Below, one piece after another: positions 13,301 through 17,816 of a stretch of 64,000 nucleotides of DNA. The number at the start of each line of letters is the position of its first letter. Position 1 is the first letter of the stretch. The stretch is from Amycolatopsis acidiphila. Lineage in GTDB: Bacteria > Actinomycetota > Actinomycetes > Mycobacteriales > Pseudonocardiaceae. The stretch spans positions 372,001-436,000 of the forward strand of contig NZ_CP090063.1 in the NCBI RefSeq assembly GCF_021391495.1. The letters run 5' to 3'. A program made the position numbers and the translations under genes. The notes under the pieces were generated by a model. It had not been told where the DNA came from and did not search any database. It saw nothing but the letters and a program-made list of their open reading frames with translations.

Positions 13301-13395
13301 GCCGCCCATACTCCCAGCGGGGGACAGCCGGATATCGCGGGGAGCCGGGTGCCGTGGACGCCTGGATACGACTGGAATGCGGGAGGCAGCACCTG

Positions 13396-14663: not shown

Positions 14664-15974
14664 GTGACGATCTTGCTGCGCGGATCTCGACGGACTTCGA
14701 CGATTTGGCCGCGCAGGGTCGCGGTGCTGTCCGTGCACACCTCACCGCTGGAACAACCGGGCACCGGCGACGCCGGCGGGATGAACGTATACATCACGCA
14801 TACAGCCGTGGAAATGGCGCGGCGCGGGATCTGCGTCGAGGTGTTCACCAGGGCGACCTCGTCGGACCAGCCGCCCGTCACGGAGCTCGCGCCCGGCGTG
14901 CTCGTGCGCCACATCCCCGCGGGCCCCTTCGAACCGCTGGGCCGCGACGAGCTGCCCGCCCAGCTGTGCTCGTTCACCTCGGGCGTACTGCGGGCGGAGG
15001 CGTTCCACGAGCCCGGCTACTACGACCTGATCCACTCGCACTACTGGCTCTCCGGCCAGGTCGGCTGGCTGGCGCGCGACCGCTGGGGGGTGCCGCTGGT
15101 GCACACCGCGCACACGCTCGCGAAGGTCAAGAACGCCGCGCTCGCCGAAGGTGACAAGCCCGAGCCGCGCACGCGGGTGTTCGGTGAGGAGCAGGTGGTC
15201 GCCGAGGCGGACTGCCTGATCGCCAACACTCCCGTCGAGGCCCGGCAGCTGGTCAGCCTCTACGACGCCGACCCGCACGCGGTGCACACCGTCGAACCGG
15301 GCGTCGACCTCGAACGCTTCACGCCCGGGTCGCAGCGCGCCGCCCGCGAGACGCTCGGCCTGCCGCAGGACGCGGTCGTGCTCGCCTTCGCCGGGCGCAT
15401 CCAGCCGCTCAAGGCGCCCGACGTGCTGCTGCACGCGGCCGCGCGGCTGCTGGAGCAGAAGCCGGAGCTGCGGAAGCGGCTGGTCGTGCTGGTCGTCGGC
15501 GGCCCGTCGGGGACGGGGCTCGAGCAGCCGCAGGCGTTGCGCGAGTTGGCCGTCGCGCTCGGCATCCAGGAGCAGACGCGGTTCCTGCCGCCACAGCCCG
15601 GTGAGGTGCTCGCCGAGGTTTACCGCGCCGCCGACGTGGTGGCGGTGCCCAGCTACAACGAGTCGTTCGGGCTGGTCGCGCTGGAAGCGCAGGCGTGCGG
15701 GACGCCCGTGGTCGCGGCCGAGGTCGGCGGGCTGCCGGTGGCCGTGGCGCACGGCGTGTCCGGTTTGCTGGTGCCGTCGCACTCGGCGCAGGACTGGGCC
15801 GGCGCGCTGGCGAGTGTCGCCCTCCGGCCGGATCGGCGGGCCGAGCTCGCGGCCAATGCCGTGCACCATGCCCGGCGGTTCTCCTGGGAGCGCACCACCG
15901 GCGCGCTGCTGGACACTTACGCGGCGGCAGCGCACTCGTTCCGAAACGCCCTACGGCCGGAGGTTGCGGTTTGA
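14664..15974 (+). CDS. mshA: D-inositol-3-phosphate glycosyltransferase
   Basis: A 436-residue GT4 enzyme that transfers GlcNAc to inositol-3-phosphate, the first step of mycothiol synthesis. Strong MshA marks are [20 protein letters not shown] at about residues 25-44, [35 protein letters not shown], and the retaining-GT EX7E segment ESFGLVALE followed by CGTPVVAA. Its length matches known MshA. The GTG at 14664 has GGGAG upstream. The stop overlaps the TTG start of the YbjN gene. Mycothiol from this pathway would serve the isomerase-like protein at 7.3 kb. Confidence 0.96.
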
Positions 15975-16483
15975 GCATCGACCAGGTGATCCAGTCCACC
16001 CTGGACAAGGCGGAGCTGAAGTACGACAGGAAGGGCGAGGGCCGGTACTTCGTGACCCTGCCGGGCACGAAGAAGCTGCAGACGAACTGCTGGCTGATCA
16101 TGCGGGAGCACGCCTTCGCGGTGGAGGCCTTCGTGTGCCGGCACCCGGACGAGGCGCACGAGGAGGTCTACCGGTTCCTGCTGCGCCGGAACGCCAAGCT
16201 GTACGGCGTGCACTACACGGTGGACGCACTGGGCGACATCTACCTCGTGGGCAAGCTGGGCCTGACCACCGTGACCGAGGAGGAGCTGGACAAGCTGCTG
16301 GGCCAGGTGCTCGAAGCCGCGGACGGGGACTTCAACACGATCCTGGAGATCGGCTTCGCGACCTCGATCAAGCGCGAGTGGGACTGGCGCGTCTCCCGCG
16401 GCGAGTCACTAGCGAACCTGGAAGCCTTCAAACACCTGGTGGAACCGGCCCGCCCGCACACCCCCGGCACCCTCACCGACTGA
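15971..16483 (+). CDS. YbjN domain-containing protein
   Basis: A 170-residue cytosolic protein with the YbjN fold; it starts [19 protein letters not shown] and contains the conserved [14 protein letters not shown] segment. It corresponds to Rv0487, always found after mshA in mycobacteria; a chaperone-like role for type III chaperone-related folds has been proposed, but none is proven. The TTG at 15971 overlaps the mshA stop as TTGA, so translation is coupled. A long gene-free stretch follows. Confidence 0.87.
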
Positions 16484-16537
16484 CAACGCAACCCTCCGCC
16501 CGCGCCCGTGCACACTTGGCCCAGCCGTGATGGGGGT

Positions 16538-16586
16538 CCAGGGGGCGAAGCCCTCCTGGCGGGGGTCTGGGGGTTCGACCCCCAGA
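16538..16586. repeat. Paired G-tract hairpins, probable dispersed intergenic repeat
   Basis: Two adjacent stem-loops follow the YbjN gene. The first, 16538-16559, pairs CCAGGGGGC with GCCCTCCTGG around GAA with one bulge. The second, 16566-16586, is a perfect 9-bp stem TCTGGGGGT/ACCCCCAGA with loop TCG. Elements of this look (gggggtctgggggttcgacc) recur between genes in several actinomycete genomes, from memory. They may act as terminators for the mshA-ybjN transcript or for a transcript from the right; there is no T-tract. Confidence 0.6.
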
Positions 16587-16605
16587 AGGGAGGAGTGATC
16601 GCCGA

Positions 16606-16824
16606 CGCAGGGGAGTGCGAAGCGCGAACATGCTCGGCGGGAGGCGGGACGGCTCGAGGGAGGGGGAGTCGCGAACTCGAGCCGCCCCGCTGACGCTCCC
16701 GCCGCTGTGGACCCGGTGGCGAGGGGGAGTGCCAACGGGGCCGGCGGGGCCGCAGCTCGGCAGGGGGGAGACGAGCTGCGGTCGTACCCCGTCACCGCTG
16801 GGGAGTGCGTGGAATCCAGCGGTG
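16606..16824 (-). ncRNA. Candidate structured RNA: five stem-loops with CUCCCC-type loops
   Basis: Between ybjN and gpmA no gene is visible for 583 bp, but five stem-loops follow each other: 16606-16619 (CGCA/TGCG), 16650-16684 (CGGCTCGAG/CTCGAGCCG), 16717-16734 (TGGC/GCCA), 16751-16780 (CGCAGCTCG/CGAGCTGCG) and 16793-16824 (CACCGCTGG/CCAGCGGTG). All stems are perfect. Read on the minus strand each loop shows CTCCCC or a longer C-run, fully or partly in the loop; on the plus strand the loops show GGGGAG. C-rich loops recall the actinobacterial 6C RNA class. Strand, ends and expression are not known; minus is chosen by that analogy only. Confidence 0.4.
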
Positions 16825-16871
16825 CGGGACGTAAGTCAACTTGTCAGATATCCACCAGTAATCACAAGACT

Positions 16872-16891
16872 ACTCGATACTCCATTCGAGT
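16872..16891. promoter_or_regulatory. Inverted repeat in the gpmA upstream region
   Basis: ACTCGA at 16872-16877 and TCGAGT at 16886-16891 form a perfect inverted repeat with an 8-nt spacer. It lies in an AT-richer patch (about 16840-16930) that contrasts with the flanking GC-rich DNA and probably holds promoters. No regulator is identified. Confidence 0.3.
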
Positions 16892-16977
16892 GAACTTCAT
16901 AACGTGTGTTAACAGAACGCAGCAAGTGTCACTTCCCGCGCTGCTTCTGGGGGGCGTTTCCCCGCGCCGATCGATCC

Positions 16978-16995
16978 CGTTACCGATTGGTAACG
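16978..16995. promoter_or_regulatory. Operator-like palindrome upstream of gpmA
   Basis: CGTTACC at 16978-16984 and GGTAACG at 16989-16995 are a perfect 7-bp inverted repeat around GATT, about 70 bp before the gpmA start. The symmetry and 18-bp length resemble binding sites of dimeric TetR, GntR or MarR-type repressors; which protein binds is unknown. Confidence 0.45.
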
Positions 16996-17066
16996 CACTG
17001 TGTGTAGAGCACCCTGTGGGGCGGCCCCTGGTGCCGGTCCGGGTGACGTTCTGGCACGCTTGGCGC

Positions 17067-17816
17067 ATGGCCGAACTTGGGACGTTGGTGCTGCTCCGGC
17101 ACGGGCAGAGCACCTGGAACGCGGAGAACCTGTTCACCGGCTGGGTCGATGTGCCCCTGTCCGGGCAGGGCGAAGCCGAGGCGCGGCGCGGCGGCGAACT
17201 GCTCGCGGAGACCGGCCTGCTGCCCGACGTGGTGCACACCTCCCTGCTCCGCCGGGCGATCTCCACCGCGAACATCGCGCTCGACGTCGCCGACCGGCAC
17301 TGGATCGACGTCCGCCGCAGCTGGCGGCTCAACGAGCGGCACTACGGCGCACTGCAGGGCAAGAACAAGAAGCAGGTGCGCGACGAGTTCGGCGAGGACC
17401 AGTTCATGCTCTGGCGCCGCTCGTACGACGTGCCGCCGCCCCCGATCGAGCGCGGCAGCGAGTTCAGCCAGGACGGCGACGCGCGCTACGCCGACCTCGG
17501 CGACACGGCACCGCTGACCGAATGCCTCAAGGACGTCGTCGCGCGGCTGCTGCCCTACTGGGAGTCGGCCATCGTGCCGGACCTGCGCGCGGGCCGGACA
17601 GTGCTGGTCGCCGCGCACGGCAACTCGCTGCGCGCGCTGGTGAAGCACCTCGACGGCATCTCCGACGACGCGATCGCCGGGCTGAACATCCCGACCGGGA
17701 TCCCGCTGCGCTACGACCTCACCGAGGACCTGAAGCCGGTCACCGCCGGCGGCACCTACCTCGACCCGACCGCGGCGAAGGAAGCCGCCGCGGCGGTCGC
17801 CGCCCAAGGACGCTGA
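17067..17816 (+). CDS. gpmA: 2,3-bisphosphoglycerate-dependent phosphoglycerate mutase
   Basis: A 249-residue dPGM of glycolysis, interconverting 3- and 2-phosphoglycerate through a phosphohistidine. [10 protein letters not shown] carries the phosphorylated His (about residue 11), [13 protein letters not shown] the substrate loop, and [11 protein letters not shown] the second catalytic His. Equivalent to gpm1 (Rv0489), upstream of senX3 in mycobacteria. The ATG at 17067 has no clear Shine-Dalgarno sequence. A strong hairpin terminator follows the stop, and here an extra regulator/reductase pair separates it from senX3. Confidence 0.96.

Follow-up and report, generated by a model that had tools for sequence, protein, structure and literature searches.

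Comparative analysis of the gap between ybjN and gpmA in Amycolatopsis acidiphila gives good support to a conserved structured RNA on the minus strand, the hairpins of which change their stems and retain their C-rich loops. On balance, we favor that this RNA represents a new family of trans-acting small RNAs that, like 6C, would pair through C-rich loops with G-rich sites in mRNAs. All positions refer to the window, the 64-kb stretch of DNA analyzed here as a whole.

Results

A cluster of GGGGAG hexamers at a fixed locus

The window contains a gene-free gap of 583 bp (16484-17066), for which our coordinates agree with the initial annotation. It lies between two plus-strand genes, ybjN (15973-16483; the name is that of the initial annotation, and there was no Pfam match at E 0.001) and gpmA (17067-17816; Pfam PF00300). 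Within this gap, GGGGAG occurs on the plus strand, corresponding to CUCCCC on the minus strand, at 16610, 16663, 16724, 16765, and 16800, that is, five times within 196 nt. Four of these positions had been annotated correctly, and the remaining copy, previously placed at 16764, is at 16765. The entire 64-kb window holds 22 copies on both strands compared to 60.5 expected from shuffled sequences. From the 17 copies outside the cluster, 0.03 copies are expected per 219 nt of one strand (Poisson probability of five, about 2e-10). Because GGGGAG is scarce across the window, the five-copy cluster is not attributable to chance. Directly after ybjN, at 16526-16590, there are GC-rich inverted repeats (GGGGGTC...GACCCCC) resembling a terminator; similarity to close relatives reaches into these repeats, and their first unit occurs once in the window.

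A strict DNA pattern run over a named genome collection retrieved 66 loci of the RNA. In 62 of them, gpmA and the RNA are divergently oriented, and gpmA was not found in the other 4; in 55 of the 66, ybjN is located 3' of the RNA and shares the strand of gpmA. In 11 of the 62 loci, gpmA is 765-2473 nt away from the RNA. Comparison of these loci shows that the predicted RNA has a fixed locus.

Architecture of the predicted RNA

The predicted small RNA spans 16643-16878 of the minus strand (about 236 nt), where the 5' end is placed by promoter-like boxes and the 3' end by the last hairpin, H4. Its predicted fold is more stable than that of shuffled sequences (z -5.46). When the segment 16596-16830 was folded, z was -6.67 for the minus strand and -3.24 for the plus strand, each compared to its own shuffles.

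From its 5' end, the RNA is predicted to begin with a hairpin at 16855-16876, minus strand, with a conserved UUGU loop (16864-16867) and changing arms. In a test of arm pairing in 61 distinct rows, 5.77 of 9 positions were paired compared to 4.83 with shuffled partners (0 of 500 shuffles). The conserved linker UCUGACAAGUUGAC follows at 16835-16848 of the minus strand; it is unpaired to partly paired upon folding and, written as UCUGACAAGUUG, contains several columns that are invariant in an early alignment (A1). A possible pseudoknot between the UUGU loop and ACAAG in the linker, noticed by eye, was discarded because the complement weakens in several members.

Four hairpins with C-rich loops make up the remainder, all on the minus strand. 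H1 (16787-16829; helices 1 and 2 of alignment A3, see below) has the loop CCACGCACUCCCC, with the hexamer at the loop edge (16800-16805). H2 (16750-16781; helix 3) has the loop UCUCCCCCC, with the hexamer at 16765-16770 and six C in the window. H3 (16698-16748; helices 4-7) has the loop CACUCCCCCUC and the hexamer at 16724-16729, and H4 (16644-16690; helix 8), which forms the predicted 3' end, has the loop CGACUCCCCCUCC and the hexamer at 16663-16668. The initial annotation had described five hexamer-bearing hairpins with stems of 4-9 bp. Inverted repeats and folding confirm the presence of stems, which are longer than this, reaching 15 bp including one G-U pair in H4. Four of the five hairpins, namely H1 to H4, are kept in relatives. 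The other one, CGCA-GGGGAG-TGCG at 16606-16619 with a stem of 4 bp, falls outside the block common to most relatives: its hexamer is held in place in none of 77 relatives, and 6 of the 77 have it elsewhere in the 43 nt beside the block. Two loci of one genus (L068 and L069, genus g36) have a shorter form of about 144 nt, with much of H2 and H3 gone and H1 and H4 kept.

Promoter-like boxes beside the RNA

Upstream of the predicted 5' end, on the minus strand, spacing and locus comparison identify an upstream promoter-like box TTAACA at 16907-16912 (TTA[AC].. in the family, preceded by G), and conservation suggests a downstream box TCGAAT at 16884-16889 within the conserved CACTCGAATGGAGTA. Of 78 loci, 52 have GTTA within the 29 nt examined, and in 50 of these it is spaced 17 nt from the downstream box; some of the misses are anchoring errors of the search pattern. 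A strict two-box pattern was present beside the RNA in 35 of the 66 named loci compared to 18 of 2640 random stretches. In the 11 loci with a distant gpmA, the boxes still accompany the RNA, as found with the strict pattern in 7 and by eye in 4. From this comparison we infer that GTTA...TCGAA is the RNA's own promoter, and with it transcription and the ends given above; with the boxes read as a promoter, the RNA would therefore start near 16878. The boxes are unlike the textbook housekeeping consensus, including that of the -10 element. A small hairpin, ACTC-GAAT-GGAGT (about 16879-16891), was at first taken for a part of the RNA; in view of the fixed 17-nt distance to GTTA, we interpret it as the downstream promoter box, and a reading of this sequence as a dyad is the alternative.

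Stems covary, loops are retained, and pairing favors the minus strand

A MAFFT alignment of 78 minus-strand sequences, made without fitting to structure, yielded 30 predicted pairs. Of these, 24 had compensatory double changes, and 27 are within H1, H2, and H4. We then realigned 99 sources with R1, a covariance model that covers 186 positions of the core, resulting in alignment A3 with 90 distinct rows. Here, 45 of 53 pairs vary on both sides, and there are 564 compensatory cells compared to 172.5 +/- 12.3 in shuffled alignments and 57-109 with slid partners. Two-sided changes were observed in 13 of 13 pairs of H1, 10 of 11 pairs of H2 (95.6% of cells paired), 12 of 15 pairs of H3, in which the apical helix is the weakest (70.7% paired), and 10 of 14 pairs of H4 (96.4% paired).

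The loops, by comparison, are held. CCCC is kept in 76 (H1), 88 (H2), 87 (H3), and 90 (H4) of 90 rows, and it is present in all four loops in 75 of the 90 distinct sequences, in three loops in 12, and in fewer in 3. The exact CUCCCC is found in 74 (H1), 69 (H2), 30 (H3), and 90 (H4) of 90 rows. Mean column conservation is 0.86 for loops, 0.80 for stems, and 0.52 for other unpaired positions. Core lengths are spread over the three classes modulo 3 (26, 29, and 35 of 90), so there is no conserved coding region. The earlier proposal that stem change with loop retention reflects selection on an RNA is thus borne out by a covariance model built from relatives, as it had recommended: the stems covary, and the C-runs persist.

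Because A3 is fitted to the model, we used the MAFFT alignment to decide between the strands. In 75 distinct rows of H1, H2, and H4, there are 114 G-U, 11 A-C, and 1846 Watson-Crick combinations. An A-C combination on the minus strand is a G-U pair on the plus strand, and G-U is far more common on the minus strand, which is therefore identified as the strand of the RNA. In the fitted A3, the ratio of G-U to A-C is smaller (229/85), and it is balanced in the outer and middle helices of H3. The plain free energy is lower for the plus strand in 40 of 52 members, as is expected since G-rich strands gain from G-U pairing. Of the two possibilities raised by the initial annotation, a multi-loop C-rich RNA on the minus strand thus fits the observed pairing, and mimicry of Shine-Dalgarno sequences on the plus strand is disfavored by the same asymmetry and by the absence of CsrA from 13 of 13 genomes of the genus that were searched.

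Distribution of the RNA

A blastn search of 150 relatives with positions 16596-16830 gave matches at E <= 1 in all 150, most of which are short chance matches. A long block, starting near 16642 in most cases, was found in 18 of 19 Amycolatopsis genomes including that of A. acidiphila. Identity of the RNA block is 89-97% within the genus and about 70-90% in other genera of Pseudonocardiaceae; the neighboring YbjN shares 50-73% protein identity within the genus. In the 19th genome of the genus (G010), the RNA gene is interrupted by an assembly break, and pieces that match it are present at the end of contig C539 and the start of contig C330. The model R1 has a single match up to E 10 in the A. 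acidiphila genome, the core at 16643-16830 (142.7 bits).

Of the 90 members of the family that were sampled, 85 have the RNA according to covariance-model searches (79 loci including the window, and 6 further genomes), among them G024 with a weak match of 43.9 bits. The other five are G010 (split), G029 (74% complete, no match), and G022, G067, and G059 (no match). The family is Pseudonocardiaceae as defined in GTDB, which includes Actinopolyspora, a separate family at NCBI. With the stricter filters that apply to searches of more than 40 genomes, and by which weak matches may be lost, R1 matched 51 of 298 genomes sampled from the order, all 51 within the family, and 1 of 396 genomes sampled from the phylum, namely that of A. 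acidiphila (0 of 395 others). Of the 247 genomes of the order sample without a match, 20 are itemized; 3 of these 20 belong to the family and 17 to other families. Except for one record, we take the genera of the 66 named loci to belong to Pseudonocardiaceae, with Kibdelosporangium and Actinopolyspora having been looked up. JOAA01000019.1 (L132), titled Rhodococcus rhodnii NRRL B-16535, carries the RNA; over 2-4.7 kb, this record matches Kibdelosporangium loci at 88-95% identity, so its organism label looks wrong.

In 21 genomes from other families of the order, the 1000 nt upstream of gpmA held at most 2 hexamers and no cluster. The same was observed in five genomes of the family in which the RNA is missing or weak (118 nt only in G029); in G024, the weak RNA is further away from gpmA than the 1000-nt stretch examined. 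Any claim that the RNA has a core function is limited by its absence from other families.

Known RNA families and possible target sites

No family of Rfam 15 reaches its cut-off anywhere in the window, in accordance with the earlier statement that no known family was recognized. The comparison with 6C (RF01066) that had been recommended earlier was negative: the gathering score of 47 bits was not reached, and a permissive Rfam scan of 16400-17100 gave only matches far below cut-off, with none to RF01066 even to E 10. A genuine 6C with two C-rich loops is present elsewhere in the same genome (61.8 bits compared to the cut-off of 47, the only match listed), and the new RNA is therefore not 6C. 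Among 120 genomes searched with RF01066, 93 have a 6C at E <= 0.001, and 88 are above cut-off. According to this search with strict filters, the two RNAs occur independently of each other: no 6C match was obtained in G009 and G013, G022 and G067 have 6C and no match to the new RNA, and G059 is without both.

Genome-wide, complements of the H1 loop with at most one mismatch numbered 19, including the locus itself, compared to 14 for a reversed control; the numbers for the H4 loop were 5, including the locus itself, and 3. None of these near-full complements of H1 or H4 is convincingly positioned at a start site. In a few cases, a long frame opens from an ATG or GTG no more than 15 nt away, and these matches are themselves inside long open frames, taken as open frames and not as called genes. 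A second exact 13-nt complement of the H1 loop is located outside the locus at G000:C1:6821770-6821782 (L243); the 15 nt behind it contain no start codon. In a small test confined to the 64-kb window, GGGGAG precedes the possible starts of 3 of 48 crudely called genes, one of which is the open reading frame through the RNA itself. GGGGAG at 13339-13344, 9 nt before the GTG start of an open reading frame at 13354, is a possible candidate target site.

Discussion

We incline to the view that the RNA described here is a new trans-acting regulator of the 6C-like kind. Its own promoter would drive transcription of the minus strand in the direction away from gpmA, and the RNA would end in a strong hairpin and present four C-rich loops. 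By analogy to 6C, these loops (CUCCCC and longer C-runs) may pair with G-rich stretches of several mRNAs, chiefly at ribosome binding sites, and pairing would change the translation or the stability of these mRNAs. The strong retention of four C-rich loops suggests short-seed pairing with several mRNAs, as was reported for 6C; we put forward such pairing, and the target site mentioned above, as proposals.

Several other explanations deserve consideration. The loops could together form a multivalent site that titrates a C-rich RNA-binding protein, as CsrB titrates CsrA. Four similar loops on varying stems follow the logic of a titrating RNA, and the start sites offer no convincing long loop complement. 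To our knowledge, there is no candidate protein; CsrA was absent from all 13 genomes of the genus that were searched, and the loops vary in length and context, with the exact CUCCCC of H3 in just 30 of 90 rows. Titration by repeated loops is a serious rival, if rather an unlikely one. Much less probable is an element of the plus strand, in which GGGGAG loops in the gpmA 5' leader or at the ybjN 3' end would act in cis or as protein sites. Such an element would accord with a position between both plus-strand genes wherever both are found, and with a plus strand that folds too (z -3.24) and does so at lower free energy in 40 of 52 members. It is opposed by the excess of G-U over A-C (114 compared to 11), by the 11 of 62 loci in which boxes and RNA stay together with gpmA 765-2473 nt away, and by the missing CsrA (13 of 13 genomes).

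An element acting as DNA, either an operator array or a site of recombination or replication, appears slightly less probable again. The palindromic linker TGACAAGTTGTCA of some members and the very high conservation are compatible with it, but the strand asymmetry of the G-U pairs and long stems with compensatory changes are signatures of RNA, and the element is single-copy in the genome. We regard a divergent member of 6C as the least probable of all: C-rich loops on GC-rich hairpins and the six C of the H2 loop recall that family, against which stand the lack of an RF01066 match at the locus to E 10, the separate 6C of 61.8 bits in the same genome, and an architecture of four C-loop hairpins and a 5' module instead of two hairpins. 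We thus retain the trans-acting small RNA as the preferred reading.

Well-known antibiotics from Pseudonocardiaceae include rifamycin, vancomycin, and erythromycin. More tentatively, and with less confidence than in the trans-acting RNA as such, the RNA might serve these antibiotic producers as a lineage-specific hub with its own non-housekeeping promoter, a second global regulator beside 6C that acts either by pairing with ribosome binding sites or by titrating a C-rich-binding protein. Our results provide Pseudonocardiaceae, and a genus in which CsrA was not found (13 genomes), with an RNA family that has no Rfam 15 match. Two different RNAs with C-rich loops per genome make shared targets testable, and several C-loops on one RNA make mRNA pairing testable against protein titration.

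We found no description of this RNA among the titles and the opening parts of abstracts that were examined. In the main text of two surveys of structured bacterial RNAs, Amycolatopsis, Saccharopolyspora, and names in Pseudonocardi- are absent (PMC8632094, PMC6429828). For Saccharopolyspora erythraea, 190 intergenic noncoding RNAs have been reported and are itemized in a supplement (PMC3610266), and it is possible that the RNA was detected earlier as an unnamed transcript among these. RNA-seq data of this species are publicly available (GEO GSE39722; PMC4008361).

Among known systems, Ms1 and 6S-like RNAs share with the new RNA that they are conserved intergenic actinobacterial RNAs. Ms1 adjoins a gene for a HAD hydrolase and binds the core of RNA polymerase (PMC9130861). 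By contrast, the new RNA is a row of hairpins flanked by gpmA and ybjN, a locus that rules out Ms1/6S membership. CsrB/RsmZ-type RNAs also carry a repeated loop motif, which is GGA, on several hairpins. Their partner CsrA, found in 3 of 14 control genomes, was detected in none of the 13 Amycolatopsis genomes searched. The C-rich loops of sX13 of Xanthomonas reportedly act on G-rich mRNA sites. This highly expressed, conserved small RNA (PMC3771888) and other small RNAs with C-rich loops resemble the new RNA in these loops; they are from an unrelated phylum, and the likeness is one of description. Closest is 6C (RF01066; B11 in mycobacteria), an actinobacterial intergenic RNA of 93 nt with two stem-loops and six conserved cytosines, which is reported in the text and a title cited therein to bind several mRNAs via its C-rich loops (PMC8628891). 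The likeness to 6C in principle, noted in the initial annotation, holds for C-rich loops on strong GC stems. The new RNA differs in being at another locus, in being confined to one family in our samples, and in having four C-loop hairpins (runs of about 4-6 C) together with a UUGU hairpin and a conserved linker. What it has in common with trans-acting small RNAs of the C-rich-loop type is a conserved structure in which the C-rich loop sequence is kept.
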